NCBI RefSeq assembly: GCF_027359925.1
Contig: NZ_CP114767.1
Span: 496,001 to 560,000 of the forward strand
From: Hymenobacter canadensis
GTDB taxonomy: Bacteria > Bacteroidota > Bacteroidia > Cytophagales > Hymenobacteraceae
Direction of reading: 5' to 3'
DNA length: 64,000 nucleotides
Positions 22,101-38,015 of this stretch are shown here, piece after piece. The first letter of the stretch is position 1; every line of letters begins with the position of its first letter. The notes below the pieces were generated by a model. It made no database searches and was not told the DNA's origin. It saw nothing but the letters and a program-made list of their open reading frames with translations. The position numbers and the translations under genes were made by a program.

Positions 22101-22360
22101 TGCAGCACCGGGCTCATGTATACGGTCTGGCAGGTGCCGTCGGGGCGCTGATACCATTCGCAGAGGGCACCGGGCACGCCTTCGGCCAGGTCCTGCAGGG
22201 CCGGCAGCGGCGCCACGGGGCCCGCGGCCAGCCGGGCCTGCAGCTGCTGAATTTCCTGCTGCTGCTGCTGCACCGTGGCGCGCAGCCGCTGCTGCCGCAG
22301 CACGCGCGACGCGGCTTTTTTCGGCGATGATGAAGAAAACGGGGGTAGGAGTACACTCAT
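19160..22360 (-). CDS. Hybrid sensor histidine kinase with multiple PAS domains, receiver and Hpt domain
   Basis: 1066 residues. An N-terminal coiled coil (RATVQQQQQEIQQLQARL) leads into four or five PAS/PAC domains, e.g. GVACNDVRDLIGFVHPKD and DVTEITKAKLELE. No membrane segment is evident, so it is probably a cytoplasmic sensor. The HisKA box FLANMSHEIRTPMNAILG is near residue 587; the ATPase domain has NILDLSKIDAG, DTGIGIDP and GGTGLGLSISRSLV. The receiver has LLVEDNEYNR and the acceptor Asp in LVLMDVQMPIMNG (near 877); the Hpt His lies in RGAAHKIKPSLRHL (near 1010). It follows a sigma-54 response regulator with a 4-nt ATGA overlap, so the two probably form one phosphorelay. Confidence 0.95.
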   Translation of the reverse strand: MSVLLPPFSSSSPKKAASRVLRQQRLRATVQQQQQEIQQLQARLAAGPVAPLPALQDLAEGVPGALCEWYQRPDGTCQTVYMSPVLHRLFGVACNDVRDLIGFVHPKDRLQVLHSLETAMRQQTSWQFEGRALIAGQPMRWWRGTAEVSEAGPLGVRFRAILQDVTSLVESQMALQESEKRWQAARDGIGNDTWEYNCQTQQHVLSAKYRTLLGYNEKPLELDQSAASWLCFDNVLPEHQIEAHRAAMAYLNGEAAVYSATYRVLDAHGESRWILSRGMITQRDAQGNPLLVTGTHTDVTEITKAKLELEASSLRLSSTIASIQRAVLLEDENERVILVNESFCEMFALPYTPEQLVGSDCRWLVQQIGGQFLDQQDFIGASRSTRQYLASDSMVVRLKDGRTLDRQATPIYANGNYIGFLWKYEDITKRNNDDALLRRREEKYRSILENLNLGLLEIDLDGKVLFANESYCQISGYSKEETLNRRLDHLLVNEAAQRLVQENRPAHTAGLTDTYELPIKTKQGELKWLLVGRSPLFDRDKQMIGSIGVHLDITHQKQMETKLREAKKHAEESTRAKEMFLANMSHEIRTPMNAILGMSQLLNKTSLSGQQHNYLHAISTSAENLLVIINDILDLSKIDAGKMAIERIGFSLRRVCEQVEKTLRYKAEDKGLSFLLEVSPDVPDVLIGDPYRITQVLLNLAGNSIKFTEKGHVVVSCELAGTVEHATIVDFCVRDTGIGIDPAYLQRLFENFSQEDSSVSRKFGGTGLGLSISRSLVHLMGGEIQIQSEKYQGTVSNFTLVLPTGSVSDLPRKELTLGSMFIREGMRGKRVLLVEDNEYNRLLAKSFLRQAHIEVIEAENGAIAVDLARRQAFDLVLMDVQMPIMNGYEATARLRKELGLTIPIIALTANAIRGDNQACLTAGMDDYLSKPFHEDELLKMVHEWLLSPPNTEAANCLYRTDLLRQAAHDDANFVTFMLRTFVSSSTDVLHTLHTGLAAQDLPALRGAAHKIKPSLRHLQIKQVLALMEQLENWDGPFDQPALEALVGKTDKLLRQVTAQITANMEA

Positions 22361-23715
22361 ATTTCACCTTCCTGAACCATTTTATAAATCGTAGAGCGGC
22401 CGATATCCAGCTTCTGCGCTACCAGGGGTACATTGTTCTGATACTTGTTGAGGTGGTGCCGGATGATGGTGCGCGTGTATTCGCGCAGCGTCTTCTCCTC
22501 CAGAAGCAGCTCATTGCTTCTGGCCGAAGGCGTAAACACAATGTCGGAAAGCTGGATTTCGGTGCCGTTGCTGAGTACGGCCGCCAGCTCCATCGTGGTT
22601 TTCAGCTCGCGCACATTGCCGGGGTAGTCGTAGGCCAGCAGCTTGGCGCATACCCCCGACCCCAGCTGCAGGGGCGGCTTGCGGTACTCCCGGCAGAAAT
22701 CGTCCACGAAATGCTTGGCCAGAAACACAATGTCGCTGCTGCGTTCCCGCAGCGGCGGCAAATTGATGGGCAGCCCGATGATGCGGTAGTACAGGTCTTC
22801 GCGGAAGCCGCCGCCCCGCACCTCGTCGGCCAGGTTCTTGTGGGTGGCCGTAATCAGGCGCACGTTCAGCTTGATGGTTTCGCTGCCGCCCACCCGCTGC
22901 AGTTCCCGCTCCTGCAGCACCCGCAGCAGCTTCGACTGGATGGCAGCGGGCAGCTCGCCGATTTCGTCCAGAAACAGGGTGCCACCATTGGCCTCCTCGA
23001 AGCGCCCGATTTTGCGGCCCTGCGCGCCCGTAAAGGAGCCTTTCTCGTGGCCAAATAGCTCACTTTCCACCAGCTCCGACGGAATAGCCGCCATGTTCAT
23101 GGCCACGAATGGCCCTTTGTGCCGTTCCGAGTTCATGTGGATGGCCTTGGCCACCAGCTCCTTGCCCGTGCCCGTTTCCCCGGTAATGGACACGTTAACG
23201 GGCGTCTGGGCCGCCTTTTCCATTAGCGCGAAGGTGGCCTGCAGGGCAGGGCTGTTGCCTTTGAGCAGGTTGTTGAACGTGTATTTCTCGTGCAGCTGCT
23301 GCTCCAGGCGCTTCACTTCCTGCTTCAGGCTGGCGTTTTCGCGCACCCGCAGAATGGCGTTCCAGAGCAGCTCCTTCGTGTTTTCATCCTTGATAAGGTA
23401 GTCGGTGGCACCTTGCTTGAGCAGCTCCACAGCCGTCACAATCTTGCTTTGCGAGCTGATGACGATGACCGGCAGCCCTGGATATTTACCTACCAGCTTT
23501 TTGAGCAGTTTGTCACCGCTGATATCCGGCAGCGAAAAGTCGATGGTAATGACATCAGGGCGCGTGGTTACCTTCTCAAAAAACTCCTGCCCCGAGGCAT
23601 ACAGACTAACGCAGTAATCGGGGTTGAGCGAGAGCTGATACTGCAGCAACTGTCCGTACCAGGGGTCGTCCTCGATAATGCAGATGGTGAACTTTGAACT
23701 GGAATCGGTTTTCAT
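22357..23715 (-). CDS. Sigma-54-dependent response regulator (NtrC family)
   Basis: 452 residues from the ATG at 23715 (MKTDSSSKFTICIIEDDPW); the frame upstream to 23778 is unlikely. Receiver with acceptor D59 (ITIDFSLPD), then the AAA+ domain: Walker A GETGTGKE at 179-186, GSFTGA loop at 226-231 (commonly GAFTGA; Ser at position 2 occurs), Walker B GGTLFLDE at 244-251 and RIIGLPINLPPLRER. A Fis-type helix-turn-helix ends the protein (VAQKLDIGRSTIYKMVQEG). It activates RNA polymerase carrying sigma-54 once phosphorylated, presumably by the overlapping hybrid kinase. The exopolysaccharide cluster starts 0.7 kb away in sequence, making it a candidate target (inference). Confidence 0.95.
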   Translation of the reverse strand: MKTDSSSKFTICIIEDDPWYGQLLQYQLSLNPDYCVSLYASGQEFFEKVTTRPDVITIDFSLPDISGDKLLKKLVGKYPGLPVIVISSQSKIVTAVELLKQGATDYLIKDENTKELLWNAILRVRENASLKQEVKRLEQQLHEKYTFNNLLKGNSPALQATFALMEKAAQTPVNVSITGETGTGKELVAKAIHMNSERHKGPFVAMNMAAIPSELVESELFGHEKGSFTGAQGRKIGRFEEANGGTLFLDEIGELPAAIQSKLLRVLQERELQRVGGSETIKLNVRLITATHKNLADEVRGGGFREDLYYRIIGLPINLPPLRERSSDIVFLAKHFVDDFCREYRKPPLQLGSGVCAKLLAYDYPGNVRELKTTMELAAVLSNGTEIQLSDIVFTPSARSNELLLEEKTLREYTRTIIRHHLNKYQNNVPLVAQKLDIGRSTIYKMVQEGEI

Positions 23716-24431
23716 ACTCGGTAAGGCTGGGTGCCGCAAAGCGGCGAAGCGGATGACGAAATCAAAGCGGGCAATCAATTACCCGAAATGGCAGGCAGCT
23801 GGCCTCCACAGCCCGGTAAGCTGTAGAGGGCAGGCCAGTTGTGGCACGTTGCCAGGCTATTCCGGCAGATACACCGGGTGGCCAGGTGCTGGAATATTTC
23901 GATGCCCCGAAGGCACCGACGCAGATAGGTAGGGTAGCAGTAGGTTGGTAGTGGTGCTGGGTAGATTATTATTTTTCATACAATATATTTGCCTTGAATC
24001 CAGGAGGAATAAAAAATCCGTAGTTGAAAATATGCAACTAATAACCATAGTTAGGATTGGCCCGTAGACCAGGTAGCAATTACCTCATGGTAACCAAAAG
24101 GTAAAAATACGCAATCAAACCTGCGGATAATAAACGGTGATACTATTCGCAACAAGTTGATAGACAGGTTTCTCAATATTAGAAAGTTGAAAAATTGGTT
24201 ATTTATCAATAATCTAATAGTTGGCTGCACGCTAAGGCATAAATACAATATCAATATGCTGTGTGCGTATACTATAAACCGGAATATTCTCAAAATGGAA
24301 GTGCTGATTCCTTATTTAGGATGAGCTGTATCTTTTGTGTTTGTATGGGTATTGTTATATTATTTGAGCGTGAATTGTTGCTATTTGCTGAGGAGCTTCC
24401 TGCTTAGATGGGCAGTAAATGAATGCAGGGC
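23716..24431. other. A/T-rich intergenic region
   Basis: About 715 nt between the regulator gene and the last EPS glycosyltransferase, clearly lower in GC than the surroundings, especially 23940-24420. It holds an exact TATATTTG (23984-23991, plus strand) with no plus-strand gene after it, and a possible 40-residue ORF on the minus strand. Otherwise I see nothing recognisable. Confidence 0.6.
23857..23979 (-). CDS. Possible 40-residue Pro-rich peptide
   Basis: From the ATG at 23979 the frame reads MKNNNLPSTTTNLLLPYLSA and then SVPSGHRNIPAPGHPVYLPE before a TAG. It starts within the A/T-rich gap, 142 nt before the regulator start on the same strand. Composition (Asn/Thr/Pro/Leu) does not resemble a shadow of another gene, but there is no homologue I recognise and no clear promoter. 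Could be a small peptide, an upstream ORF or chance. Confidence 0.25.
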   Translation of the reverse strand: MKNNNLPSTTTNLLLPYLSASVPSGHRNIPAPGHPVYLPE

Positions 24432-25646
24432 TTACGCTTCGTGCTCATAAAACATATTGAGGGCCTGATAGTGGCCCAGCTGGTTCTGCAGCAGCACTTC
24501 CTGGCTGAACTGGCTCAGGCGCGGCTGCAGGCCGCCTTTTTCCGTGGCGGTGCACACGCTATGAATGAGGTAGTTGTATTTGCGGGCCACCACATCCCAG
24601 GTGTAGCGGCGGCGGGCAATGGCCTGCATCGTGGCTCCCTGGCGCTGCCATTGCGCAAACGCAGTGCTCTTGATAGTGGCTTTGATATCTTCCTGCGTGC
24701 TGAAAAACAGGGCTTTGTGCTCGGTGGTGGCCTTGTTGAACGAAACCCCAAAGGCCAGCACCGGCAGGCCCAGAGACATAGCTTCCACCAGCGACGGATT
24801 GGTACCGCCTGCGCTGTGGCCGTGCACATACACAAAGCAGTTGCCGCGCAGTACATTCAACTCGTTCTGGTCGTAGATCGGGTCGAGCAGGTGCAGGTTG
24901 GGGTAGGTGCCGTAGCGGGCCTTCATGGCGCGGCCAAACTCGCTGTTGTTCCAGTTGCCAACCAGCACCAGCGGATACTCGGGCAGCTCGGCAAACGCCG
25001 CCAGAATCATCGGCACGTTGTTTTCGGGTTCGATGCGGCACACCTTGAACGCGTAGGGGTGGCACAGAAATGGGTAGCGGATTTTGTGCTCCTGGGTGAT
25101 GGGCTGGCGGGCAGCATGGTCGCCGCCGTACTCTACCACCCGGCTGCGGGTGCTGTAGGTCTGGGCCGTGTAGTCCTGGATGGCGTCGTTGTCGGAGATG
25201 TCGGCGTGGGAAAACCGGACGGCCAGGGCCTCGGCCAGCCGCAGATACCAGCGGGCCAGGAAGTTCCACTTGGCCCGCCGCCACTCAATCCCGTCAATAG
25301 ACACGATGATGCGCTTGTTGGTGAACAGCTTCACGAAAGGCAGCATAATGCCGCCTGACACGCCCAGGACCAGCAATACGTCGGCGTAGAACAGCGCGTG
25401 CAGGATGGAAAAGCAGTCGTAGAGGATGCTCTGGATGCCATTGGCATCGAAGGGCAGAAACACCAGCCGGGCCCCGTCGCAGTGCGACTGGCGCTGGGCT
25501 TTGGGGTAGCGCTTGTTGGTGCAGTACACCGTGAAATCGTGTTCCTGGCTGAGATGCTTGACCAGGTAGGCGGTCAGGGTTTCGAAACCACCGTAGCAGG
25601 CGGGCAAACCAACGGTGCCGATAATGGCTACTTTCTTGCTGGACAT
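24432..25646 (-). CDS. Glycosyltransferase with DUF1972 (rhamnosyltransferase-like)
   Basis: 404 residues. The N-terminus VAIIGTVGLPACYGGFETLT is the DUF1972 signature (IxGTxGIPxxYGGFET) found in GT-B rhamnosyl- or related transferases of capsule clusters. The donor-binding half shows YAFKVCRIEPENNVPMIL, LVLVGNW, YVHGHSAGGTNPSLVEAMSL and GLPVLAFG, a GT4 pattern with the nucleotide-sugar Glu. Predicted cytoplasmic enzyme adding a sugar to the lipid-linked exopolysaccharide repeat. Last gene of the minus-strand EPS cluster; 76 nt separate it from the preceding glycosyltransferase. Confidence 0.88.
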   Translation of the reverse strand: MSSKKVAIIGTVGLPACYGGFETLTAYLVKHLSQEHDFTVYCTNKRYPKAQRQSHCDGARLVFLPFDANGIQSILYDCFSILHALFYADVLLVLGVSGGIMLPFVKLFTNKRIIVSIDGIEWRRAKWNFLARWYLRLAEALAVRFSHADISDNDAIQDYTAQTYSTRSRVVEYGGDHAARQPITQEHKIRYPFLCHPYAFKVCRIEPENNVPMILAAFAELPEYPLVLVGNWNNSEFGRAMKARYGTYPNLHLLDPIYDQNELNVLRGNCFVYVHGHSAGGTNPSLVEAMSLGLPVLAFGVSFNKATTEHKALFFSTQEDIKATIKSTAFAQWQRQGATMQAIARRRYTWDVVARKYNYLIHSVCTATEKGGLQPRLSQFSQEVLLQNQLGHYQALNMFYEHEA

Positions 25647-25721
25647 GAGGGGGAAAGAAAAACCAGGCTGGCGGTGCCGGGCCGGGGTAGCAGAATAGGA
25701 ATAAGGGAAAGCGAAAAAAGG

Positions 25722-26870
25722 CTAGGCGCGGGCCGTAACGTGGCCCGGCACATAGGCCGGAGCTGTGGGCCGCGCCGACGACACCACTTCGGCCTGAAAC
25801 TGCTGCTGCAGCTGCTCGGCAAAGCGCGCCGGCGAAAAGTAGGCGGCGCGGTGGCGGCAGGCGGCGGCCATGCGCAGGTAGGTGGGGCGGTTGGTGGCCA
25901 GCAGGTTCAGGGCCAGCCGCAGGGCCGGCAGGTTGTGCCCGTCGATGGCGAAGCCGGTCTGGCCTGCTTGGTTGACTTCGGCCACGCCGCCCATCGTGGG
26001 CACCAGCACCGGCCGGCCGTGCTGCAGGGCCTCCAGAATGGTCATGCCGAAGGTTTCCACCCACTCGGTGGGGCGCGACAGGTTGGCTACCACGGCCGCA
26101 CGGCGGTAGAAGGGGTGCATGTCGTGCACCGCCGCAAATAGCGCGAGGTTGGGCGGCAGCGTGTGCTGCTGCCGGTAGTGCTGAACCTGCGCGGCCGGGG
26201 CGTTCAGCACCAGTTCGAAGTGCAGCTCGGGCATGGCCGCGGCCAGCGCCACAAACTCGGGCACACCCTTGTAGTCTTTCAGCGAGCAGGCCATAAGCAC
26301 TGTGAACGGCCCGTCGGCAGCCGGCCCGTCGGCCTCGGCCTCGGCTATAAACTCCGCCGACAGCACGTTGGGCACCACGGCCTGCTGCGGCACGCGCAGC
26401 GCCAGCGTCCGGCGTACATACTCCGACACAAACAGGGCCCGGTGGGCCGTATGGTTGGCCACCGCGCGCAGCAGCCGCATCAGCAGGGCCGGCCGGATGG
26501 ACACTTCGTGCAGATGATACACTACCCGCGCGCCCCGGCAGCGGGCCGCTAGTGCCGCCGCCGCCGGCAGCAGCGAGTTGACGTAGACCACCGTGCCGGG
26601 CCGCACCAGCCGCAGCACCTGCCCGAATACCACCAGCTGCACCCACGCAAAGCGCAGCAGCGTGCGCCAGCGGCTCGGCGACCATTGGTAGGGCAGGGCA
26701 TGGGTGCTGATGCCAGGCAGGTCGCTCAGGAAGCCGGTTTCGCCGGTCGGGGTGCCCGTGAGCAGGTCGATGTGGAAGCCGGCGGCGCGCAGGCTGAGCA
26801 GGGCGTTGCGCAGCACCAGCGGGCTGCCGCTGCGGTCGTTGAGGAGATGGACGGCAAGGATGCGTTTCAT
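25722..26870 (-). CDS. GT4-family glycosyltransferase
   Basis: 382 residues from the ATG at 26870 (MKRILAVHLLNDRSGSPLVL), which overlaps the upstream stop as ATGA; the frame upstream to 26957 is not used. N-terminal GT-B fold with VYVNSLLPAAAALAARCRGA and VVYHLHEVSI; donor domain with VLMACSLKDYKGVPEFV, then SRPTEWVETFGMTILEALQH and GRPVLVPTMGG, including the E-x7-E type acidic site. Transfers an unknown sugar in EPS repeat-unit assembly. Confidence 0.88.
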   Translation of the reverse strand: MKRILAVHLLNDRSGSPLVLRNALLSLRAAGFHIDLLTGTPTGETGFLSDLPGISTHALPYQWSPSRWRTLLRFAWVQLVVFGQVLRLVRPGTVVYVNSLLPAAAALAARCRGARVVYHLHEVSIRPALLMRLLRAVANHTAHRALFVSEYVRRTLALRVPQQAVVPNVLSAEFIAEAEADGPAADGPFTVLMACSLKDYKGVPEFVALAAAMPELHFELVLNAPAAQVQHYRQQHTLPPNLALFAAVHDMHPFYRRAAVVANLSRPTEWVETFGMTILEALQHGRPVLVPTMGGVAEVNQAGQTGFAIDGHNLPALRLALNLLATNRPTYLRMAAACRHRAAYFSPARFAEQLQQQFQAEVVSSARPTAPAYVPGHVTARA

Positions 26871-28117
26871 GACTGCGACAGGGCTTGCTGATAGACGTGG
26901 GCCAATTGCTGGCCGCGCCGCGCCCAGGTGTGGTGGTCGGCGACGTGGGTGCGGCACAGCTGCGCCTCGGTGGCCTGCAAAGTGGGGCTGGCAAACAGGG
27001 CCGTCAGCTGGGCCGCGAAATCGTGGATGTTTTGCCGGAAGGTGCCGTAGGGCACCGTCAGCCGCGAGGCGGGCGGCACCAGCTCGCCGGGGCCCTCGTT
27101 GCGGTAGCAGAGTACCGGCACGCCGTAGCTCATGGCCTCCGCCACCACCATGCCCGCCCCCTCATGCGACGGGAAAAAAAACACGGCGGCTTCGCGGTAG
27201 AGCGTCAGCAGCTCGGTGCGCTCCAGCCAGGGCCGGTGCCGGGCGCAGGCGGCTAGGCCCCGGCGCTGCAGCAAGTGCAGCAGCTGTGCCTGCTCAGGCC
27301 CGCTCCCGATGAGCAGCAGCTCGGCGCGGGCCTGGCTGGCGGCGGGCAGGGCGTGGTAGAACTCGGCAAAGGCCTCAATCACCATATCGAAGCCCTTAAG
27401 CGGCACCATGCGGGCCGCAATCATCACCACAAACCGGCCATCGGCGGTAGGCCGGAGCTGGTGGGGTGTTTCGGGGGGCAGGTCTACGGCTACGGAAGGC
27501 ATGATCTGGAAGCGGCCGGGGCGCAGGCGCAGGCGCGGGGCCACGGTGGAGTTCATGCACAGCACCTGGTGGGCCGAGCGGCGCGTAACGCGCAGAAAAG
27601 GGTCGAGGCGCCAGAAGCTGTGCTTCATGAGCGTCAGTAGGCGGTCTTTGCCGTAGGCGGCGGCGCCGTACTGGCGCAGGTGGTCGGCCGGAATGGGCGG
27701 GTGGTGCCCGATAGGCCCCCACACCAGCGGCCGGCGCAGCAGCCACAGAAACGAGGGCGTCCAGTCGTTGTGGAAGTTGAGGTTGTGCACCAGATCCACG
27801 GCCGGCCGGCGGTGCCACAGCCACAGGCCCAGCCCCAGCTGCCACATATAAAAGTAGAGCACCGACAGCAGCGGCCCCTTTTTCCACCAGCGCATCCAGG
27901 CCGGCAGATCGAAGTAGTCGAACTGAATGCGCGCGGCCAGTGGGGCCAGCTCGGGATGGGCGGCCAGAAACTGCTCGATGGGCGGGCGGTTGTTGCGCCG
28001 CGTCACGGCCACTACCCGGTGGGTGGCGGCGGCCTGCAGAATGAAGTTCCAGCCCATGCCGTCTTCGGAGCCTTTGTACGGATTCACGGCATATGCCGTC
28101 AGCAGGATGGTTTTCAT
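26867..28117 (-). CDS. GT4-family glycosyltransferase
   Basis: 416 residues, linked to both neighbours by 4-nt overlaps. Begins MKTILLTAYAVNPYKGSEDG, the typical AYACNPxxGSE opening of a GT4 subgroup, then VHNLNFHNDWTPSFLWLL and PLVWGPIGHHP. The donor half includes MIAARMVPLKGFDMVIEAF, LLLIGSGPE, AAVFFFPSHEGAGMVVAEAM and GVPVLCY. Probably one of four glycosyltransferases building the exopolysaccharide repeat unit; sugar specificity is not readable from sequence. Confidence 0.88.
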   Translation of the reverse strand: MKTILLTAYAVNPYKGSEDGMGWNFILQAAATHRVVAVTRRNNRPPIEQFLAAHPELAPLAARIQFDYFDLPAWMRWWKKGPLLSVLYFYMWQLGLGLWLWHRRPAVDLVHNLNFHNDWTPSFLWLLRRPLVWGPIGHHPPIPADHLRQYGAAAYGKDRLLTLMKHSFWRLDPFLRVTRRSAHQVLCMNSTVAPRLRLRPGRFQIMPSVAVDLPPETPHQLRPTADGRFVVMIAARMVPLKGFDMVIEAFAEFYHALPAASQARAELLLIGSGPEQAQLLHLLQRRGLAACARHRPWLERTELLTLYREAAVFFFPSHEGAGMVVAEAMSYGVPVLCYRNEGPGELVPPASRLTVPYGTFRQNIHDFAAQLTALFASPTLQATEAQLCRTHVADHHTWARRGQQLAHVYQQALSQS

Positions 28118-28842
28118 AGAGCCAGCTCGGCAACGTGAGGCGTGGCCGGCTGGGGCTCACGCGAAGAAAGAATGCGGGCCGGCACCCCGCCCAGCACGCT
28201 ACGCGCCGGAAACGAGCGGGTAACCACGGCCCCGGCCGCCACCACGCAGCCCTCGCCCAGCACCACGCCATCGAGCACCGTCACCTTGCTGCCAATCCAG
28301 CAGTTGGGGCCGATGTGAATGCCGCGGTGCGTGACGCCCTGCTGCCGGATGGGCGTGGTCAAGTCGGCGTACTGGTGGTTTTCGGGGTGGCAGCTGAAAT
28401 ACTGCCCGATGATGCAGTCATCGTCGATGCGCAGGCCGCCGGCGCCGCCCAGGTAGGCAAACTCGCCGATGCCGACGTGGTGCCCGATGCGGATAAACGC
28501 CCCCGGCTGCTGCAACGACGTGGACACAATCACCTGGCTGAATGCCCCGATGCTGACGCTGTGGCCCAGCGTGAGGCCGCCGGTGGAGAGCCCGCTGAAC
28601 CGCACCTGGTCGCCGGCTTTCAGCCAGCGGCCAAACCGGATGCCGCTCAGATACTGAAACGACACGCCCCGGCCCAGCATGGCACCGTGGCTGGCGCGCC
28701 CCCGCAGCCAGAGCTGCGTGCCGCGCAGCATGGCGCCGGCTGTGCGCAGTGCAAAGCCCGCCAGCCAGCCCACCGGCACCGCCTCATGGATAGAAAAATG
28801 CGGGTTGCGGCGGCGCACCCAGGTTTCGAGCAGCTGTTTCAT
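28114..28842 (-). CDS. Left-handed beta-helix acyltransferase (WcaF-like)
   Basis: 242 residues. Hexapeptide repeats run through GGLTLGHSVSIGAFSQVIVS, IRIGHHVGIGEFAYLGGAGG, LRIDDDCIIGQYFSCHPENH and GPNCWIGSKVTVLDGVVLGE, ending in VVAAGAVVTRSFPARSVLGG and VPARIL, the standard end of O-acetyltransferases of this family. The catalytic His is probably in SCHPENHQY. Likely O-acetylates a sugar of the polysaccharide. A hydrophobic stretch near 25-45 (VGWLAGFALRTAGAML) may associate with membrane. It overlaps the three-domain protein upstream by 4 nt. Confidence 0.88.
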   Translation of the reverse strand: MKQLLETWVRRRNPHFSIHEAVPVGWLAGFALRTAGAMLRGTQLWLRGRASHGAMLGRGVSFQYLSGIRFGRWLKAGDQVRFSGLSTGGLTLGHSVSIGAFSQVIVSTSLQQPGAFIRIGHHVGIGEFAYLGGAGGLRIDDDCIIGQYFSCHPENHQYADLTTPIRQQGVTHRGIHIGPNCWIGSKVTVLDGVVLGEGCVVAAGAVVTRSFPARSVLGGVPARILSSREPQPATPHVAELAL

Positions 28843-31295
28843 TTGATTTCCTGTTGGAGGTAGCCGCCGATGAGGGCGAGGGTGTCGTCGAGGTTGTGGT
28901 TTTCGATGGGCACGTACTGCGACTGGCGGTAGCGCCCGGCCAGCTGCCCGAACAGGTCCTGGTACTTGGTGGTGAGCTGCACGATGGTTTCGCCGGACAG
29001 CTCCTGCTTGCGGCGCAGAATCACCTCGGGCGCGGCGTAGAGGAAGAAGTTCAGGCGTGGCTTATTCACGAAGGCGTACAGGGCGCGGGTCAGGCGCTCG
29101 GGCACCGCAATGTTGCTGCGGCGGCTGTCGTTGATGAAGTCGAAGTAGTACCGGTCGTAGAGCACGATGTGGCCGCGGCAGGTGTATTTCAGCCACACCA
29201 CGCCCTGGCCCAGCACGTAGTCGAGGTAGTAGTAGGCGAAGCGGGCCAGCGAGGAGGTCAGGCGCTGGTTGGCGCCCTGGCGCGGCAGCGAGGCCCCGGC
29301 GCGTTGCTCGGCCCCGGCCCGGCCGTACTTCCAGGCGCTCAGAATGGGCAGCACCGACGGCCGGTGCCGGATAACTACCACCCGCTTGCGCCACTTCTTC
29401 TCCAGCCGCTCCTTCACGTGCTCTATCACCGTGGACTTGCCGGCGCCATCCACGCCGCTGAACGTTACCACGAAGCCATTGGGCCGGAAAAACGACGCCA
29501 CCGTGCTCAGGCCGTAGCGCACGGTGCGCGCCAGCCGGCGCACCGTCGAGTTGCTGGGCTGGTTGCGGATCATCAGGGCCAGCTGCCGGCCAATCAGCGG
29601 CTGGTACTGCGCCGCCGAAGCCACGGAGTCGAAATGCAGGTTGTATTTATCCACGAGGTGGTGCAGCAGCTCCTGCTGCTCCTGTGGGCTCTGCTGCTGG
29701 AAGTAGTGCAGGTGGCCGGCCGGCATGCTGCTTTGGTTCAGCCAATAAAACAGCCAGGTGTATTCGAAGTCGTGGTGCAGGGCCAGCACCGGCACGCCGG
29801 GCGCGCTGGGGTCTACATGGTCCAGCACGTCGTCGGTATCGAGCAGCTGCAGGCCTTTGCGGTGCAGCTGGTGCAGCAAGTCCACCGATAGAAAGGAGCC
29901 GTCCTGAAAAAAACAATCCACGGAAACCATGTGGGCCTGGCGCCGCACCCCCGCCGAGCGCACCAGCGGAAAGGTGCGCAGCCACCCGGCCAGCTCCCCG
30001 GCGTTGAGCCGGGGCAGCAGCAGGTCCACGTCGGAGGTAGGGGCGGGGTAGTAGGCATTGGCGGCGCGCTGCTTCAGCACCACCCCTTCGTGGGCCGGCA
30101 GCGCGTCGAGCAGGTCGAACAAGCACAGCTGGCGGTGCTCGGTGTGGGCGGCCAGCTCCAGCGTCAGGAGCGCGCTCCAGCCGCCGAGCAGCCACTCCAC
30201 CTGCGTGTGCCACTCCGGCTGGGCGTGGTAGATGAGGGCGTAGCTGGAAACCTGGTGCAGCAGGTAGAGCTGCCAGGCCAGGCGCAGCTGGGCTTCCGGA
30301 ATGGCCGGAAAATGCGCCTGCGCCTGCGCCCATAGTTGCCTCCGGATCTGGGCGGCGGGGCGGCGGCTCATCAGCAGCCCCTCCTGCACCCCGAAATGAA
30401 ACAGGTCGTAGAGCTGCGGGGCGGCGTCCTGGGCAAATTCCAGGTCGTAGATGGCCAGCTCGTTGCGCCCCAGCCAGCAGTTCCAGGGCGTGAAGTCGCC
30501 GTGGGCGAAGGCCAGCGCCACGGTCTGCTCCGGTTCGATGCTGCCCATAACCAGCTGCAGCTTGGCGCGCAGGCCGTAGGGAATGCGCGTTTCGCGCAAT
30601 TCCCCCAGCTCCGTGAGCTGGCGCACCACGGTGTGCCAGAACGGCGTGGCGGCCAGCGTTTGGTGGGTGGTGGTGGTGCGCAGCTGCTCTTGCAGAAACC
30701 GGAAGTGGGCCGGCATGAGCCGGGTAGCACGGCGGGCGTGGGCGGGCTTCACACTGCGCTGGGCCAGCAGGCCGGGGCGGGCCGTCACCACGGCCGGCAC
30801 CCGGTAGGTGGTGGCGGGGCGGGCCGCCAGGCTGCGTAGGGCTTGGGCTTCGGCCTGCACCTTGGCATCGGCGGCCGGCGTGAGCGGCAGCTTGGCAAAC
30901 AGCAGCTGGCCGGCTCCGTCGGGGTAGCAGCACACGGCTTTCCGAAACGGGCCGGGCGTGCCCAGGAACAGGGCAAAGCCCACCGGCGACCAATGCTGGG
31001 TGCCAGCGCAGGCATAGCGGCCCGGCAACACCGGAAACAGCCAGCGGTGCAGCCCCAGCCAGAAAGCCAGCTGCACCAACCCTCCAAACAGCCGCGCCTT
31101 GGGCGAAGCAGCACTGTAGAATTCCAGAAAGAGCGGCTGGCGGAGCGTGGCGGCCCACACCCAGCGCAGGCTGCCATTGGGGTTGCGGATGCCGCGCAGC
31201 TGCGTGCCGCCCTGCGCCACTGGCACGTAGCCCAACCGGCCCATCAGGCCAGAGAGCAATTGCTGATCTGTATCAAATAAGGTAGTCGTGGTCAT
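28839..31295 (-). CDS. Three-domain protein: APH-like phosphotransferase, nucleotidyltransferase-like, thymidylate-kinase-like
   Basis: 818 residues. Domain 1 (about 120-390) has the aminoglycoside-phosphotransferase/choline-kinase catalytic loop HGDFTPWN at 265-272 and a metal-site DLE at 284-286. Domain 2 (about 390-560) carries KQRAANAYYPAPTSDVDLLL, where SDVDLL at 421-426 looks like the acidic pair of a nucleotidyltransferase fold. Domain 3 (about 605-818) is a P-loop kinase: FSGVDGAGKST (Walker A at 614-622), VVVIRHRPS, YDRYYFDFINDSRRS and a C-terminal LIGGYLQQ helix, most like thymidylate kinase. It heads the second half of the EPS cluster. The natural substrate is unknown; phosphorylation or nucleotidyl activation of a polysaccharide building block is the simplest idea. 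Confidence 0.75.
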   Translation of the reverse strand: MTTTTLFDTDQQLLSGLMGRLGYVPVAQGGTQLRGIRNPNGSLRWVWAATLRQPLFLEFYSAASPKARLFGGLVQLAFWLGLHRWLFPVLPGRYACAGTQHWSPVGFALFLGTPGPFRKAVCCYPDGAGQLLFAKLPLTPAADAKVQAEAQALRSLAARPATTYRVPAVVTARPGLLAQRSVKPAHARRATRLMPAHFRFLQEQLRTTTTHQTLAATPFWHTVVRQLTELGELRETRIPYGLRAKLQLVMGSIEPEQTVALAFAHGDFTPWNCWLGRNELAIYDLEFAQDAAPQLYDLFHFGVQEGLLMSRRPAAQIRRQLWAQAQAHFPAIPEAQLRLAWQLYLLHQVSSYALIYHAQPEWHTQVEWLLGGWSALLTLELAAHTEHRQLCLFDLLDALPAHEGVVLKQRAANAYYPAPTSDVDLLLPRLNAGELAGWLRTFPLVRSAGVRRQAHMVSVDCFFQDGSFLSVDLLHQLHRKGLQLLDTDDVLDHVDPSAPGVPVLALHHDFEYTWLFYWLNQSSMPAGHLHYFQQQSPQEQQELLHHLVDKYNLHFDSVASAAQYQPLIGRQLALMIRNQPSNSTVRRLARTVRYGLSTVASFFRPNGFVVTFSGVDGAGKSTVIEHVKERLEKKWRKRVVVIRHRPSVLPILSAWKYGRAGAEQRAGASLPRQGANQRLTSSLARFAYYYLDYVLGQGVVWLKYTCRGHIVLYDRYYFDFINDSRRSNIAVPERLTRALYAFVNKPRLNFFLYAAPEVILRRKQELSGETIVQLTTKYQDLFGQLAGRYRQSQYVPIENHNLDDTLALIGGYLQQEIK

Positions 31296-31644: not shown

Positions 31645-32031
31645 TCATTTGCGGGACGGCATAAGGATGGCCATCCAGCGCTTGGCGCCGCTTTTTTTGG
31701 CTTGCTCCGACGAACTGAACGAGGTTCTGGGCACTGAGTCGCGTTTGCCGGCACCGGCGGCGGGCTTGCGCTTGTGGTGCAGCACGATGCCCTTGTGCAC
31801 ATGCTGCCGGCAGCCGCGGCGTACTCGTATCACATCCTGATAAGTGCGGGGCCCGGGGCCGTTGGAAACCAGCAGGGCGGGCACTTCCGCCGGGCCGTCT
31901 GCCTCCACCAGGTAGTCGCTTTCTGACAGGGCCTGGTCGGTGAGCTGCGGCGAAATAATGCGGGAGATGATCAGAAGGCTCATTAGGGCTGCAAAGCGTG
32001 CGAGGAGCATAAGGGAACTGACGGCATGCAT
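31645..32031 (-). CDS. Hypothetical small exported protein within the EPS cluster
   Basis: 128 residues from the ATG at 32031, giving a hydrophobic N-terminus (MHAVSSLMLLARFAALMSLL). The mature part contains LVEADGPAEVPALLVSNGPG, RVRRGCRQHVHKGIVLHH and a very basic Ser/Lys C-terminus. The upstream open frame to 32145 has no better start. A strong terminator 35 nt downstream supports it as a real transcribed gene. No family is recognised; a lipoprotein or periplasmic accessory role in polysaccharide export is only suggested by location. Confidence 0.55.
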   Translation of the reverse strand: MHAVSSLMLLARFAALMSLLIISRIISPQLTDQALSESDYLVEADGPAEVPALLVSNGPGPRTYQDVIRVRRGCRQHVHKGIVLHHKRKPAAGAGKRDSVPRTSFSSSEQAKKSGAKRWMAILMPSRK

Positions 32032-32233
32032 GGGAAGAAAGGAAGAATGGTGGAAGATAAACCGTGGCCATTCGGGGGCAACGGCAGGGGAAAAAGTGAG
32101 ATTCTGTGGATCTGGGGCAGAAACTGGCTGGGTTGGGGAGGACATGCCGGTGGCAGACTACCCCGAAAGCCGGAGTAGCAGAACACCGAGCAGCGGCCCG
32201 GACGAATCCCGGCCCACCAGTAGGAAATTGGAC

Positions 32234-33523
32234 TTAGGCCACGGCCAGCTCGGGGCGGCGGCGTTGCAGAAACAGCCGTTCCGGCGCTGTCAGGCGCGGG
32301 TTCACCTGCAGGCTCACGAGCAGGATCAGGAACTGGTAGAACAGGATGCCGTAGTTGGTCTGGCCGAAGATGCCGAACTCGGTTACGGAGTTGATCAGCA
32401 GCGGAATAAAGAGGCCGATGAACAGCAGGCGCTGGGCGCGGTCGGGCGTGTGGGCAAAGCCGCGCAGCGTGAATAGCAGCTGCGCCAGCACCAGCCCGAA
32501 GCCCACCAGCCCCAGGTTCATGAGCACCTGAATGAAGGTGTTGTGAGTCATTTGGGCGGCGTAGGTGTGGGTGCTCTGGAAATAGTCGGTGTAGGCAATG
32601 CGCATGAAGCCGAAGCCCAGCAGCGGCTCCTGGGGCAGGCCCTCCGTGAGCAGGGCTTCCCAGAACGGCAAGCGGCCGGTCAGGCTCATCACCTCACTCA
32701 CCCCGCCCTGCTTGATAAACACCGTCTGGACCACCACCGGCACAGCCAGCAGCACCGCCGCAATGCCGGCCAGCCGCAGCCGGGCGTTGCCGGAGTTCCA
32801 GAGGTAGAACAAGGCCACCAGCAGCAGCCCGATCAGCGACGAGCGGGAGCCAGTGAGCACCAGCGCATACACTACGGGCAGGATTTTGAGAACCGTCAGC
32901 AGAGACTGGTGGCGGCGCAGCAGGTCGGGCAGCAGGCAGGCCACGCACACGCCGCACAGCATCCCCAGCTCGTTGGGGTTCATCAGGAAACCGCCAAGGC
33001 GAGCTTCCTCGCCGCCGTGCGTGAAGCGGTAGAACACGTCGGGTGCCACCACCATTCCCACCAGAAAGCCCACAATCAGGATCCAGGCGGCGGTGGCCAG
33101 CACCCGGTGCAGGCGCAGGTTGCTGCCCGGGAAAAAGGTATTGAGCAGCAGAAAGCACTTCACGAAGTAGTAGGCAAACACGAAGCTCTCCACGTCCATG
33201 AGCAGCTGCAGCAGCGAGTAGCCCGGCGCCGTCGACCACATGACGGAGGCCGCGCCCAGCAGCAGGTAGGCCCCGTAGAAAAGCGGCGCCAGACTGTGCT
33301 GCCACCGAAACGAGCCGACGGCGCCCCGGTGCAGCACCCGCCGGTAGAGGGCGTAAGCGGCCATGGTCATGCCCACGCGGCTGATGGTTTTGAAGATCTG
33401 GGTGAAGACCACACTGTCGCTCCAGGTGAAGAAGCCGGCCAGCTTGATGAGCAGCACCACGGTGAGCAGCACCTGCATGCTGCGCAGGAAAGAGCGGTGG
33501 TTGGGGGGCGTGGCGTTACGCAT
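32234..33523 (-). CDS. O-antigen ligase/polymerase-family membrane protein (Wzy/WaaL-like)
   Basis: 429 residues with 10-12 hydrophobic segments. The O-antigen ligase core is visible: LGGFLMNPNELGMLCGVCVA, then VLTGSRSSLIGLLLVALFYL and the long periplasmic loop RLPFWEALLTEGLPQEPLLG, ending MTHNTFIQVLMNLGLVG, a conserved His-Asn-x-x(I/L) motif. In this cluster it is the most likely polymerase joining lipid-linked repeat units, although ligases share the fold. It overlaps the upstream glycosyltransferase gene by 8 nt. Confidence 0.88.
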   Translation of the reverse strand: MRNATPPNHRSFLRSMQVLLTVVLLIKLAGFFTWSDSVVFTQIFKTISRVGMTMAAYALYRRVLHRGAVGSFRWQHSLAPLFYGAYLLLGAASVMWSTAPGYSLLQLLMDVESFVFAYYFVKCFLLLNTFFPGSNLRLHRVLATAAWILIVGFLVGMVVAPDVFYRFTHGGEEARLGGFLMNPNELGMLCGVCVACLLPDLLRRHQSLLTVLKILPVVYALVLTGSRSSLIGLLLVALFYLWNSGNARLRLAGIAAVLLAVPVVVQTVFIKQGGVSEVMSLTGRLPFWEALLTEGLPQEPLLGFGFMRIAYTDYFQSTHTYAAQMTHNTFIQVLMNLGLVGFGLVLAQLLFTLRGFAHTPDRAQRLLFIGLFIPLLINSVTEFGIFGQTNYGILFYQFLILLVSLQVNPRLTAPERLFLQRRRPELAVA

Positions 33524-34640
33524 GGCAGGCGCGCTGATACATGCTGTGGTATTGCGTCAGGAGCTGCGGCCAGGCGAAGGCCGTGGCCACCATGTGCTGG
33601 CTGCGCAGGCCGCGCTGCTGGCGGGGAGTGTTGCGCCACTGCTGGTGCATCTGCTGCAGGCTCATGGCCAGCTGGGTCGGCTTGGCCTCGGGCAGCACTT
33701 GGCCGCATGCATACTGGCGCACGTAGCTGCCCAGGTTGGTGGCTTCCGTCACCACGCACGGAATACCCAGCGCGGCCGCTTCCAGCACGGCCGTGGGCAA
33801 ACCCTCGTAGTGCGAAGTGTGGGCAAAAACATCAAGCTGGCTGAGGAGCGCCAGCTTTTCGGCCCCGAAGCGGCTGCCCAGCACGTGCACCGTGCCAGCC
33901 GGCACGGCCGAGGCCCAGTTTTCCACTCTGGCGCGGTCGGGCCCGTCGCCGATAATCCACAGCTCGGCATCGGGGCGGGTGCGGGCAAACTCGCCGAAGC
34001 CCGTAATCAGGCAGTGCAGGCCCTTGTGGTTGTCGTCGAGGCGGCCGCAGAAGCCCACCCGGAACACCTCGGCCGAGGCGGTGCGCGGCCAGGTGGTTTC
34101 GGTGGGGTTTACTTCGTAGCCGTAGGGCAGCAGGCAGGGGCTGAGGCCGGGCAGCCGGCGCTGCAAACCCTGTACTTCGCTCTGGCCCAAGCAATGCACC
34201 TGCGCGGCATTCTGCAGCACAAACTGCTCGCACACGCTCAGGTACACCCGCTTGACAAGGCCGTTTTTGCGCATGGCCTGGGTGCTGTAGCTGCCGTGGG
34301 GCGTGAGCACATACGGCAGGCCCAGGGCTTTCATTTGGCGGGCCGCCGAGAAGTAGGCTGGCACGAAGCCGCCGTGCAGGTGCACCACCGCCGGGCCCTG
34401 CACCGCCGCCAGCGCCGCCAGCAGCTGCCGCGATAGCTGAAACGGCGTGCGCTGCGCCTGGAACAGCCGCGTCAGGAACTCGTGGTGGGGGTGGCCGGCC
34501 TCTACGTCGCGGGTGATGCCCCACACTTCCACGTCCCAGCCGGCGCGCTGTTGCTGCGTGGCCATGGCGTGCACCACCTTGTTCACGCCGTTCATGCGCT
34601 CAGGGTTGGCTTTGCCCAGAATCAGGTGAATAACTTTCAT
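33516..34640 (-). CDS. GT4-family glycosyltransferase
   Basis: 374 residues. MKVIHLILGKANPERMNGVN is the GVNxVV acceptor-domain start; VVHLHGGFVPAYFSAARQMK and YVLTPHGSYSTQAM follow. Donor domain: VGFCGRLDDNHKGLHCLITG, ELWIIGDGPDRARVE, VFAHTSHYEGLPTAVLEAAA and GIPCVVTEATN. All are GT4 features. Overlaps both neighbours (4 nt with the flippase gene upstream). Sugar specificity unknown. Confidence 0.9.
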   Translation of the reverse strand: MKVIHLILGKANPERMNGVNKVVHAMATQQQRAGWDVEVWGITRDVEAGHPHHEFLTRLFQAQRTPFQLSRQLLAALAAVQGPAVVHLHGGFVPAYFSAARQMKALGLPYVLTPHGSYSTQAMRKNGLVKRVYLSVCEQFVLQNAAQVHCLGQSEVQGLQRRLPGLSPCLLPYGYEVNPTETTWPRTASAEVFRVGFCGRLDDNHKGLHCLITGFGEFARTRPDAELWIIGDGPDRARVENWASAVPAGTVHVLGSRFGAEKLALLSQLDVFAHTSHYEGLPTAVLEAAALGIPCVVTEATNLGSYVRQYACGQVLPEAKPTQLAMSLQQMHQQWRNTPRQQRGLRSQHMVATAFAWPQLLTQYHSMYQRACHA

Positions 34641-35932
34641 GGTGTTTCAAGTCGGGCCGGGCCCGGGTTAGTTGGAAGAAGTTGGGCCTGCGCCCGCCAC
34701 ACGGCCAGCGCCCAGTAGAGGCCCATCGTGAGCTGAGCCACAATCCAGCCCAGCACCACGCCGCTGGCCTGCCAGTGCGCCACCAGCCCGCGGGCCAGCG
34801 CAAACGACACCACAATGCTCAGGGCGTAGCCAATGAAGTAGGGCCGGGCATTGTGCAGCAGCCGCACCGTGAGGCGTAGCGGATACACCAGCAGAAGCAC
34901 CACGTAGAGCAGGCAGCACCAGCGCAGCACAGCGGCGTTGGGGGCGTTGCCGGCCTGCAGCCACCCCACAATGGGTTCGGCCAGCCCAAACAGCAGCCCG
35001 ATGGGCCCGGCCGCCAGCAGCAGCATGGTGCGCCACAGCTTGGCGCGCTGCTGCACAAACAGCTGGGGCTGGCTGCGGAAGCTCTGGCTGAGCCTGGGCA
35101 GCGCGTAGTTTTCCACGGCCTGCAGGCCCACGTTGAGCACGCCCATAAATGTTTGGGCCAGCCGCAGAATCCCCAGCATCGAGGCACTGCCCGCGAAGCC
35201 GGCAAACACCAGCAGCGCGTTCGACGAGGCCCACTGCAGAAGCACCGTTGGCAGCAGCCACCGCGCCTGCTGCCCGTGCCGGCCCGCTAACTCCAGCGTT
35301 GTGCGCAGGGAAAGCTGCCACCGCAGCCCCAGCGTGCGGGCCGAAAGCGCCAACGCGGGCACCGTCGTCAGGCCCACCACCCACAGCACCGCCGCCAGCG
35401 ACGGCGCCCCCGGCTGCAGCGCCCAGTACAGCAGCACCAGCAGCTGCCCGCCCGCCGACACTAGGTCGCTGAGCAGCGCCCACCGCACCTGGCCTTCGGT
35501 CAGGAGCAACTTGCGGGCCGTATCCTGGGTGCAGGCGGCTACCAGGCACACCAGAAAGGCGGGCAGCACCGAGGTATCGTAGGGGAGCAGCAGGGTGGCA
35601 GTAGCCACGGCCGCCACGGCCAGCGTGCTGAACGTGAGCTGCATCCCCAGCAGCGCCTGCCGGTAAGCGGGCTGCTGCGCCGGGCTGGTGGCGCCGTGCA
35701 CCAGTTGCATCGGCTGGCTGATGAGGGCGCCCTGCACGGCCAGGGCCAGCAGCAGCACCAGCTGCCAGGCGCTGTAGGCCCCAAAAGTGGCCAGCCCGCA
35801 CAGCTTGGCCAGGAAGATGTTGGTCAGGAACGAGGTGGCGCTGACCACTGCCTGGCCCGCTACCACCCAGTAGCGGGCCGGCAGGGCCGCCAGCCTATGC
35901 CGTAGCAGGTGCGCCGGCCGGGCGGGGAGCAT
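34637..35932 (-). CDS. Polysaccharide flippase (Wzx/MATE-type)
   Basis: 431 residues from the ATG at 35932 (an in-frame TTG lies two codons upstream). Twelve or so membrane helices, beginning YWVVAGQAVVSATSFLTNIF and LAKLCGLATFGAYSAWQLVL, the usual start of MVF/polysaccharide-synthase flippases; late segments are LLYVVLLLVYPLRLTVRLLH and GYALSIVVSFALARGLV. Should move lipid-linked repeats across the inner membrane before polymerisation. The start overlaps the end of the chain-length gene by 38 nt. Confidence 0.85.
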   Translation of the reverse strand: MLPARPAHLLRHRLAALPARYWVVAGQAVVSATSFLTNIFLAKLCGLATFGAYSAWQLVLLLALAVQGALISQPMQLVHGATSPAQQPAYRQALLGMQLTFSTLAVAAVATATLLLPYDTSVLPAFLVCLVAACTQDTARKLLLTEGQVRWALLSDLVSAGGQLLVLLYWALQPGAPSLAAVLWVVGLTTVPALALSARTLGLRWQLSLRTTLELAGRHGQQARWLLPTVLLQWASSNALLVFAGFAGSASMLGILRLAQTFMGVLNVGLQAVENYALPRLSQSFRSQPQLFVQQRAKLWRTMLLLAAGPIGLLFGLAEPIVGWLQAGNAPNAAVLRWCCLLYVVLLLVYPLRLTVRLLHNARPYFIGYALSIVVSFALARGLVAHWQASGVVLGWIVAQLTMGLYWALAVWRAQAQLLPTNPGPARLETP

Positions 35933-38015
35933 CAGCAAATTTCCAGCTGGCCTGCCGGGCCTGGCGCTTGCGCAGCAGGTGCCACATGCCCGGCTCGTAG
36001 CCTTCGCGGTTCAGGCAGAAGTACACGTTCGGCAGCTTGTATTCCTCCACCAGCATCTCCAGCTCGTGCAGGCGATGCAGCGGCGTGGTGCAGCTGTCAA
36101 TCAGCACGAGGTTCACGTCGGCGCCGGCCATCACGGCCAGGCTGTGGCTGTCGTCGTCGAGGGGCAGGTTGTGCACCAGCAGCAGTTCCGTGGGCATGGC
36201 CGCCGGGTCTGGCGACTGCGGGTCGGCGATGCGCAGGCCGCGGACTTTTTTGCCCTGGGCCAGCAGCGCCGCGTTCAGGTTTTCAAACACGAAGCGCTGG
36301 CCTTCTTCCTCGGTGAACGACGTCACCACCAGCTTCTGGCCCAGCGAAAGCAGCCCTTTCAGCTCCAGGCGCGTAGTGAGCTGCCGGAAATAAGCGGCGC
36401 GCTGTGCCGCGGCCGGCAGAAACGGAATGCTGGCGGCCAGCGGAATGCGCGACTCCTTCTGCACGTACATTGTATTGGTAGGCGTGGCGCGGATGGCGGC
36501 CAGCATATACACCAGCCCGATGCCGGCCACCATGCCCAGGAAGCCCGACACCAGCACAATCAGCGTGCGGTTCGGCGACACGGGGTCGGTGGCGGGTACG
36601 CCCTCCGAGATAATGCGGTGCGACGAAGTAGGCGTGGCCTTGGCAATTTCGGCCTCCGTTTTCTTCTCGTGCAGCATCGTGTAGAGCTTCTCGTTCAGCT
36701 GGAAATTGCGCTCCAGAATGGCCATGTTCTTCTCGCGGGTCGGCAGGCCCACAAATACCTGCTCCGACTGCCGGATGGTCTGGTCGATTTCGCGGAAGCG
36801 GATGGTGAGGGCGTTGCGCGTGTTCTTGATGCTTTCCAGCAGGTAGTTGTTCAGGTCGGCCATTTTCTGGTCGATAGCCACCACTTTCTCATCTTCGGGC
36901 TTGAAGCGCAGCAGCAGGTCGCGGCGGTCGGCCTGCAGGTCCTTCATCTTCTTCACGATGTCGTTGGAGAGCAGGTCGTTGAACGCCTCGAAGGTTGGGG
37001 CCAGCTCGAGCACGTTCTTGCTGCCTGAGCGCATGTAGCGGTACAGGTCGTTGGCGGCGGCCAGGCTCATGCTCAGGTTGGCGCGCTGCAGCTTCATCTC
37101 CGCAATCTTGTGCAACTCGGTGTCGGTTTCCTGCCCGATGTTTACGATGCGCTTCTGGTCGCGGTAGCCTTCAATAGAATTTTCCGACTGGGCCAGGTTG
37201 GCGCCCACCGACTGCAGCTGGCGGTCGATGAAATCGACGGTGGTATTGGCCACCTTGTACTTGTTTTCCAGGTAATCGTCCATGTAGGTGGCCGTGAGGG
37301 CATTCACCAGGTCGGCCGCCTTTTCCGGCACGGCACTCCGGAAGCTCACCCGAATCACGGCCACGTCCTTGTCCACGCTGGTGATGTCGAGGCGCTCCAG
37401 CACTTCCTGCATCAGCTGGGCGCGCGAGTGCTGCACAAACTCGTAGTTGTCCTGCAGCTCCAGGCCGGGCTTGGCGCTGAGCAGCTGCCGGTTTTTGCCA
37501 ATCACGATGTCGGCGCCGGCACAGTGCAGGCGCTGGCCGAAGCGGCCGTTGAGCGTTTCGCCGCCCGGCGTCGTCAGCGCAAACCGGTCAGCCGACTGAA
37601 TTTCCAGCTGGAAGGGCTCATCCTGCCACAGTGCATTGTGGAGCTGCAGGTTCACCGAAAACGGGCTTTCGCGGTACATTTCCGTTTTCCGGATTTCGCC
37701 CACCCGGTAAGTGCTCAGGTCGAAGGCCAGCCGGTCGAGGGCTTTGCTCACCAGCATCCGCGACTTGAGCAGCTCAACCTCGGCGCCGGTCTTGTTGTTG
37801 GGCGAGAAGGCATCGGTGGTTTTCACCAGGTTGCTGTTCACGGCGCTTTCGTTGGCTTCCGCCAGCCGGATTTTGGCCGTGCTTTCGTACACCGGCGTGG
37901 TGTAGCGCAGGTATTGCATGGCGGCCAGCATGGCCAGGCCGGTGCACAGCAGGATCAGGGGCAGGCCGCGCCAGAGCGGGCGCAGCACGCGCAGGTTGTT
38001 GGTCAGTTCGTTCAT
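35895..38015 (-). CDS. Wzz/GumC-type polysaccharide co-polymerase with degenerate BY-kinase domain
   Basis: 706 residues. N-terminal membrane helix PLILLCTGLAMLAAMQYLRY, Wzz domain (YESTAKIRLAEANESAVNSN; VELLKSRMLVSKALDRLA), a long coiled coil (DFIDRQLQSVGANLAQSENS), a GNVR-like region and a second helix (TLIVLVSGFLGMVAGIGLVY). Normally a tyrosine-kinase domain with a GEGKST P-loop follows. Here it reads LVVTSFTEEEGQRFVFENLN near residue 562: the Gly-Lys-Ser/Thr is replaced by GQRF, the Walker A' DxD is ADPQ, and no C-terminal Tyr cluster exists. The fold (later NLVLIDSCTTP, the Walker B area) seems retained without catalysis. It should regulate chain length and export together with the Wza-like protein. 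Confidence 0.88.
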   Translation of the reverse strand: MNELTNNLRVLRPLWRGLPLILLCTGLAMLAAMQYLRYTTPVYESTAKIRLAEANESAVNSNLVKTTDAFSPNNKTGAEVELLKSRMLVSKALDRLAFDLSTYRVGEIRKTEMYRESPFSVNLQLHNALWQDEPFQLEIQSADRFALTTPGGETLNGRFGQRLHCAGADIVIGKNRQLLSAKPGLELQDNYEFVQHSRAQLMQEVLERLDITSVDKDVAVIRVSFRSAVPEKAADLVNALTATYMDDYLENKYKVANTTVDFIDRQLQSVGANLAQSENSIEGYRDQKRIVNIGQETDTELHKIAEMKLQRANLSMSLAAANDLYRYMRSGSKNVLELAPTFEAFNDLLSNDIVKKMKDLQADRRDLLLRFKPEDEKVVAIDQKMADLNNYLLESIKNTRNALTIRFREIDQTIRQSEQVFVGLPTREKNMAILERNFQLNEKLYTMLHEKKTEAEIAKATPTSSHRIISEGVPATDPVSPNRTLIVLVSGFLGMVAGIGLVYMLAAIRATPTNTMYVQKESRIPLAASIPFLPAAAQRAAYFRQLTTRLELKGLLSLGQKLVVTSFTEEEGQRFVFENLNAALLAQGKKVRGLRIADPQSPDPAAMPTELLLVHNLPLDDDSHSLAVMAGADVNLVLIDSCTTPLHRLHELEMLVEEYKLPNVYFCLNREGYEPGMWHLLRKRQARQASWKFADAPRPAGAPATA

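Follow-up and report, generated by a model that had tools for sequence, protein, structure and literature searches.

A single open frame of Hymenobacter canadensis joins an APH/choline-kinase-fold kinase, a pol-beta-type nucleotidyltransferase (NT) and a thymidylate-kinase-like P-loop kinase (TK) within a Wzx/Wzy exopolysaccharide (EPS) cluster, and sequence comparisons indicate that the three modules very probably work together in one polysaccharide pathway. The evidence for one pathway is strong, because the modules are fused in two different orders and, where split, are encoded by genes that cluster together. With a probability of roughly 0.5, we consider the fusion to be a three-enzyme unit of the Wzx/Wzy pathway that provides a phospho-substituent or a nucleotide-activated building block through the chain of transfers proposed below. 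The window, that is, the whole stretch of 64,000 nucleotides analyzed, contains the gene and its modules at the following positions:

28839..31295, minus strand: three-domain fusion gene, one open frame, 818 aa, ATG at 31295
30141..31295, minus strand: module 1, residues ~1-385, conserved N-terminal part and APH/choline-kinase-fold kinase (K135, E149, H265-D267-N272, D284-E286)
29496..30140, minus strand: module 2, residues ~386-600, pol-beta-type NT (K408, D422, D424, D472)
28842..29495, minus strand: module 3, residues ~601-818, TK, Pfam PF02223 (SGVDGAGKST 613-622, DRYYFD 714-719, R762)

In the translated frame, the motifs reported in the initial annotation lie where it placed them (HGDFTPWN at 265-272, DLE at 284-286, SDVDLL at 421-426, DRYYFD at 714-719, and the P-loop), and the three domains are of the kinds it proposed, as judged by predicted folds for the kinase and, less strongly, the NT, and by Pfam for the TK. 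An alignment of 54 same-order family members with mutual identity below 65% reveals one more invariant NT aspartate, D472, beyond the acidic pair of that first reading, and the invariant residues of the alignment take in all three active sites. Residues ~20-100 are conserved along with the kinase, also in relatives with a rearranged module order. The fusion protein is probably cytosolic. An antisense frame of 345 aa is present at 28854..29891, and we see no reason to call it a gene.

When the fusion protein (P0001) was searched alone, only Thymidylate_kin (PF02223) exceeded its Pfam cut-off (27.5 versus 27 bits), and the APH model was absent from the matches at E ≤ 10. Across the 54-member set, the TMPK model matched all members, the APH model 43 at E ≤ 1, and NTP_transf_5 a single member (E 0.0037); NTP_transf_2 was above cut-off in the rearranged relative P0136. 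Since Pfam alone names only the TK, the APH and NT assignments are based on relatives and predicted structures. Among solved structures, the single sequence gave no match at E ≤ 0.001 (best 0.0023), and the family profile retrieved only two thymidylate kinases at that threshold. The classical NT signature is an hG[GS] motif ahead of DxD; this motif was not found in module 2, where the fusion reads PAPTSDVDLL and a rearranged member reads LHGWQGLPEHLLSDLDI.

Structure prediction, the check suggested in the initial annotation, covered modules 1 and 2 and agreed with both proposed folds. The predicted structure of module 1 matches the APH/choline-kinase fold (VIA-align), sharing this fold and the catalytic loop with APH(4)-Ia, LicA and choline kinase; identity to this superfamily is ~11%, and module 1 differs from these proteins in being fused to an NT and a TK. 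The predicted structure of module 2 matches the pol-beta-type NT fold, with weaker support in the Foldseek listing; the fold and the three acids are as in ANT(2'')-Ia, JHP933, TM1012 and MenT, with identities of 7-15% among the best 11 matches, whereas module 2 is fused and lacks the classical G[GS] motif.

The active sites proposed to be intact are indeed retained: all 17 key residues checked are kept in 122 of the 124 full-length same-order relatives. Kinase residues K135, E149, H265, D267, N272, D284 and E286 occur in 124/124, as do D472 of the NT and G614, K620, T622 and D714 of the TK, while D422, D424 and R715 are found in 123, 122 and 123, respectively. The two exceptions, P0012 and P0128, carry changes at the NT acids and, once, at R715. 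Conservation among the modules is highest in the TK (mean pairwise identity 0.59 versus 0.30-0.34), which contains its own conserved stretches, RHRP and RFxYYYxDY, in the same-order form.

A homology search scored 8000 candidates and identified 407 homologues at E ≤ 1e-3, with identities to the fusion of 52-100% in the best 51 of the 120 homologues listed; together with the conservation of all 17 residues in 122/124 relatives, this argues that the fusion is not a chance event. The kinase-NT-TK order recurs across Bacteroidota with a patchy distribution. The full-length gene is present in 15 of 200 family genomes and, by our reading of the search output, in 8 of 395 phylum genomes, with three further split cases and one shortened case; the raw phylum tally of 134/395 consists mostly of weak P-loop matches. 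The cassette of Hymenobacter swuensis resides on a plasmid typed as mobilizable. The initial annotation knew of no characterized protein with this order and we likewise found none in the literature, but an uncharacterized family already exists in databases, where labels such as "thymidylate kinase" or "phosphotransferase" are attached to some members. All three modules fall into known superfamilies; no description of the fusion, or of the trio as an EPS-synthesis unit, was found in the literature searched, from which subscription papers were mostly missing.

A second module order, NT-TK-kinase, was first reached by a search with the same-order family profile, and a search with one rearranged protein as query found 318 relatives. 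Module order was assigned by HMMs, each model built from 55 of 62 representatives, in 258 distinct proteins (120 listed from each of the two homologue searches, with 407 and 318 found, plus 76 from the profile search): 128 were kinase-NT-TK, 49 NT-TK-kinase, 74 TK-kinase with an NT below the HMM, four kinase-NT, two kinase only and one NT-TK. Between the two orders, hhalign matched the NT profiles over 134 columns (96.8%, E 2.5e-10), acids against acids, in profile comparisons where one option was ignored for the template alignment. All 19 residues checked are kept in 108 of 121 rearranged proteins, the 13 exceptions including H697L in five, D85H in three and gaps at the NT acids in three; catalytic residues are thus mostly non-degenerate among homologues of both orders, a point on which the proposal could have failed. 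Records with the rearranged order come from other bacteria and some archaea, and many are metagenome-assembled genomes (MAGs); source names include Chloroflexi, Inmirania, Thermodesulfobacteriota, Deltaproteobacteria, Tectomicrobia and Methanomethylicaceae. HMMs and profile comparison identify all three modules in uncharacterized proteins such as those from Inmirania (P0178), Chloroflexi (P0172) and Methanomethylicaceae (P0192), with catalytic residues mostly kept; these relatives differ in module order, and C-lobe residues invariant in the same-order form, such as Q365 and W373, are absent from the rearranged conserved list. No relative was found in the viral contigs scanned with P0178.

The modules also occur as separate genes. 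The cassette of one Bacteroidota genome (G237) is the same but has two frames between Wzy and the acyltransferase, the first (484 aa) for the kinase and the second (432 aa) for the NT-TK. In genomes G354 and G377, the kinase and the NT-TK are adjoining genes, and the NT-TK of G354 shares 76% identity with a rearranged fusion. Plasmids of Agrobacterium leguminum, Leisingera and Legionella adelaidensis each bear a polysaccharide cluster in which a gene annotated as "phosphotransferase" is accompanied by a "hypothetical protein" gene for the NT-TK. A Streptomyces plasmid cluster encodes a phosphotransferase whose catalytic loop is intact, a TK on its own and a GDLD-motif protein that may be the NT; because this NT candidate is recognized only by its motif, the case is only suggestive of three separate genes. 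Except in Streptomyces, the NT and TK stay joined in split forms, and the kinase is the separable partner.

The placement of the gene in an EPS cluster, as initially proposed, is borne out by the window, in which the fusion lies among genes for Wza, Wzz, Wzx-like, Wzy and glycosyltransferase (GT) proteins:

19160..22360, minus strand: hybrid histidine kinase (HK)
22357..23778, minus strand: sigma-54-dependent response regulator
24432..25646, minus strand: DUF1972/Cps2T-like glycosyltransferase
25722..26870, minus strand: GT4 glycosyltransferase GT4c, start set at an internal ATG where homologues begin
26867..28117, minus strand: GT4 glycosyltransferase GT4b
28114..28842, minus strand: hexapeptide acyltransferase, its start overlapping the fusion stop in ATGA; next gene in 45/51 loci
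32234..33523, minus strand: Wzy (O-antigen ligase family)
33516..34640, minus strand: GT4 glycosyltransferase GT4a
34637..35938, minus strand: Wzx-like gene, no Pfam match, labeled from position, length and general look
35895..38015, minus strand: Wzz/Wzc-type chain-length protein
38012..38752, minus strand: Wza-type export protein
38757..39263, minus strand: response regulator (RR) heading the cassette

The syntenic order Wza-Wzz-Wzx-GT-Wzy-[fusion]-acyltransferase-GT is conserved across Bacteroidota; no description of this cassette was found in the literature searched. Loci were fetched for the best 78 of 319 relatives, and counts cover the 51 flanked by 8.5 kb or more on each side; the other 26 of 77 loci lack such flanks and were left out, as was L095, whose fusion gene ORF clustering failed to place. 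As this clustering may split families, the following counts are lower bounds, and "Wzx" and "PHPT" are our own labels. In the 51 loci, the acyltransferase was present in 45, GT4b in 45, GT4c in 47, the DUF1972 GT in 48 and GT4a in 44; Wzy in 44 (as the previous gene in 34), the Wzx-like gene in 43, Wzz in 42 and Wza in 40; and the RR in 39, PHPT in 36, the HK in 29 and the sigma-54 RR in 23. The fusion therefore co-occurs with Wzx- and Wza-type genes, the neighborhood pattern suggested beforehand as support for a shared pathway. By their titles, the locus records belong to Bacteroidota and related groups (e.g., Balneolales), except for a MAG titled Limnohabitans (L064).

Two fusion orders, split partners in the same clusters and a conserved EPS cassette together back the shared pathway put forward in the initial annotation. 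In the chain that we propose, the APH-fold kinase would phosphorylate a hydroxylated acceptor, the pol-beta-type NT would transfer a nucleotidyl group (or phospho-substituent) to or from the phosphorylated acceptor, and the TMPK-like TK would either phosphorylate the product once more or re-phosphorylate a released nucleotide; a phospho-substituent or nucleotide-activated building block would thereby be made or attached and used by the cassette. The tight NT-TK pair and the separable kinase fit such a chain, in which a phosphorylated acceptor is followed by the NT and then by a finishing or recycling TK. Catalysis by all three modules in vivo, the order of steps, a single common substrate and the product are what we infer here; successive transfers on one substrate, yielding an activated sugar, polyol or phospho-substituent, were likewise a conjecture of the initial annotation.

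The identity of the TK bears on this scheme. The dTMP-kinase NCBIfam equivalog TIGR00041 scores it at 25.9 bits, far under the cut-off of 83.25, and a gene found at full length in only 15/200 family genomes cannot be the family's source of an essential activity. A role as housekeeping dTMP kinase was rejected on these two grounds, which also weaken the earlier suggestion of dTTP as a substrate; the TK probably does not serve the cell as dTMP kinase, and an accidental fusion of an ordinary dTMP kinase is extremely improbable. Its Pfam Thymidylate_kin score just above cut-off, and the lack of another Thymidylate_kin match in this genome, would favor the latter reading, although the same kind of search missed the fusions of G141 and G147, which another search found, and its control gave no match in Bacteroides. 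The TK shares the P-loop and the DRY-type motif with thymidylate kinase (Tmk), but lies far below the dTMP-kinase cut-off and has the RHRP and RFxYYYxDY stretches of its own. Comparison with one canonical Tmk by hhalign gave 86%, with the P-loop and DRY aligned; the middle is not reliably aligned, so that no residue-level conclusion on dTMP binding can be drawn.

Other roles in the same cluster can be weighed against the proposed chain. The kinase could generate phosphocholine, phosphoethanolamine or a similar group, with the NT serving as the cytidylyl- or phospho-transferase that acts on the glycan while the TK recycles the nucleoside monophosphate, as in LicA/LicD-like decoration. This is conceivable though unlikely: the predicted likeness to the LicA/LicD phosphocholine pathway is confined to the fold of module 1, which antibiotic phosphotransferases fit equally well, and no LicC- or LicD-type match appeared among the window proteins scanned (GT4c being scanned only in a wrong frame). 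LicD is also not among the NT fold matches listed, which excludes nothing. It is rather more doubtful that the unit phosphorylates and nucleotidylates a sugar of the lipid-linked oligosaccharide, licensing Wzx flipping or Wzy polymerization. The immediate neighbors, Wzy before the fusion in 34/51 loci and the acyltransferase after it in 45/51, speak for this role, as may an analogy with Actinoplanes, where deletion of wpsI yields squashed sporangia, as does deletion of the whole wps-1 Wzx/Wzy cluster (PMC13390465); the TK module is not readily explained by it. WpsI is a protein-kinase-like-fold protein needed for the cluster phenotype, and the sections that describe this name neither an NT nor a TK for the cluster (PMC13390465). 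A regulatory or scaffolding role, with domains that sense nucleotides rather than act on an EPS precursor, might be suggested by the regulators that often accompany the cassette (RR 39, HK 29 and sigma-54 RR 23 of 51 loci); it appears very unlikely, as the catalytic sites of all three types persist together across ~35% identity and in either module order, and split partners sit among biosynthetic genes. Anti-phage defense was also considered and rejected, PADLOC matches being no more than weak and partial for P0001, P0135 and the Agrobacterium NT-TK, and absent for the Agrobacterium kinase.

The methyl-phosphoramidate capsule pathway of Campylobacter employs a kinase, a nucleotidyltransferase and a second kinase, of enzyme families other than those of the fusion. 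To our knowledge it offers the nearest published logic, as an analogy rather than a case of membership; two of its kinases, a glutamine kinase and a cytidine diphosphoramidate kinase, are named in the reference list of PMC11924219. Architecturally, the NT-TK pair also recalls other enzymes. CoA synthase and PAPS synthetase each fuse a nucleotidyltransferase to a P-loop kinase; their nucleotidyltransferases have another fold. In a scheme of this type, the kinase would form X-P, the NT nucleotide-P-X, and the TK would phosphorylate the nucleotide ribose to give a new 3'-phosphonucleotide-activated donor or a CoA-like carrier for an EPS substituent. We give this scheme little credence; if true, it would be present in bacteria of several phyla and possibly in archaea.

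For the proposed three-enzyme unit, the genomic case is strong, tying three enzyme types without a known common job to one polysaccharide pathway. Its product, once worked out, would account for hundreds of proteins (407 and 318 found) that are now unnamed or named for one domain, and would give chemistry to the EPS cassette of Bacteroidota.

Across the Bacteroidota loci that encode relatives of the kinase-nucleotidyltransferase-thymidylate-kinase-like fusion protein (L026-L103), a syntenic gene order recurs: Wza-Wzz-Wzx-like-GT-Wzy-fusion-acyltransferase-GT-GT-GT. A shortened form of this exopolysaccharide cassette occurs at locus L148 of genome G212. Its 634-residue fusion frame comprises the kinase and nucleotidyltransferase modules and lacks the thymidylate-kinase-like module, and within the 19 kb examined, the genes from Wza to Wzy and the acyltransferase gene were unmatched. 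The gene labeled PHPT, present in 36 of the 51 relatives with at least 8.5 kb on both sides of the fusion gene, was not seen in the window's cassette; a 36%-identical homologue is located away from it, at G000:C1:3914151-3915131 of the Hymenobacter canadensis genome.

Two further features of the window are:

25722..26870, minus strand, GT4c glycosyltransferase gene, in a different frame from the 566-residue frame at 25294..26994
31645..32145, small frame that separates Wzy from the fusion gene

The 566-residue frame had no homologues among the proteins encoded around the fusion loci. The small frame had a single one (42%) and no family matches.

With the fusion set aside, the whole H. canadensis genome yielded no dTMP-kinase match above the cut-off. 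The top match to the dTMP-kinase model TIGR00041 is a 236-residue frame that reads like a deoxynucleoside kinase. A match to PF02223 (Thymidylate_kin) at E<=0.001 was absent from 29 of the 39 genomes searched, H. canadensis included, in a search that also overlooked known fusions and was silent in the Bacteroides control.

A complete cassette is found at L064, in a metagenome-assembled genome titled Limnohabitans, reflecting either cross-phylum transfer or a binning error. The cassette is also borne by plasmid pHsw1 of Hymenobacter swuensis (L108), which is typed as mobilizable; this carriage may account for the patchy spread of the cassette.
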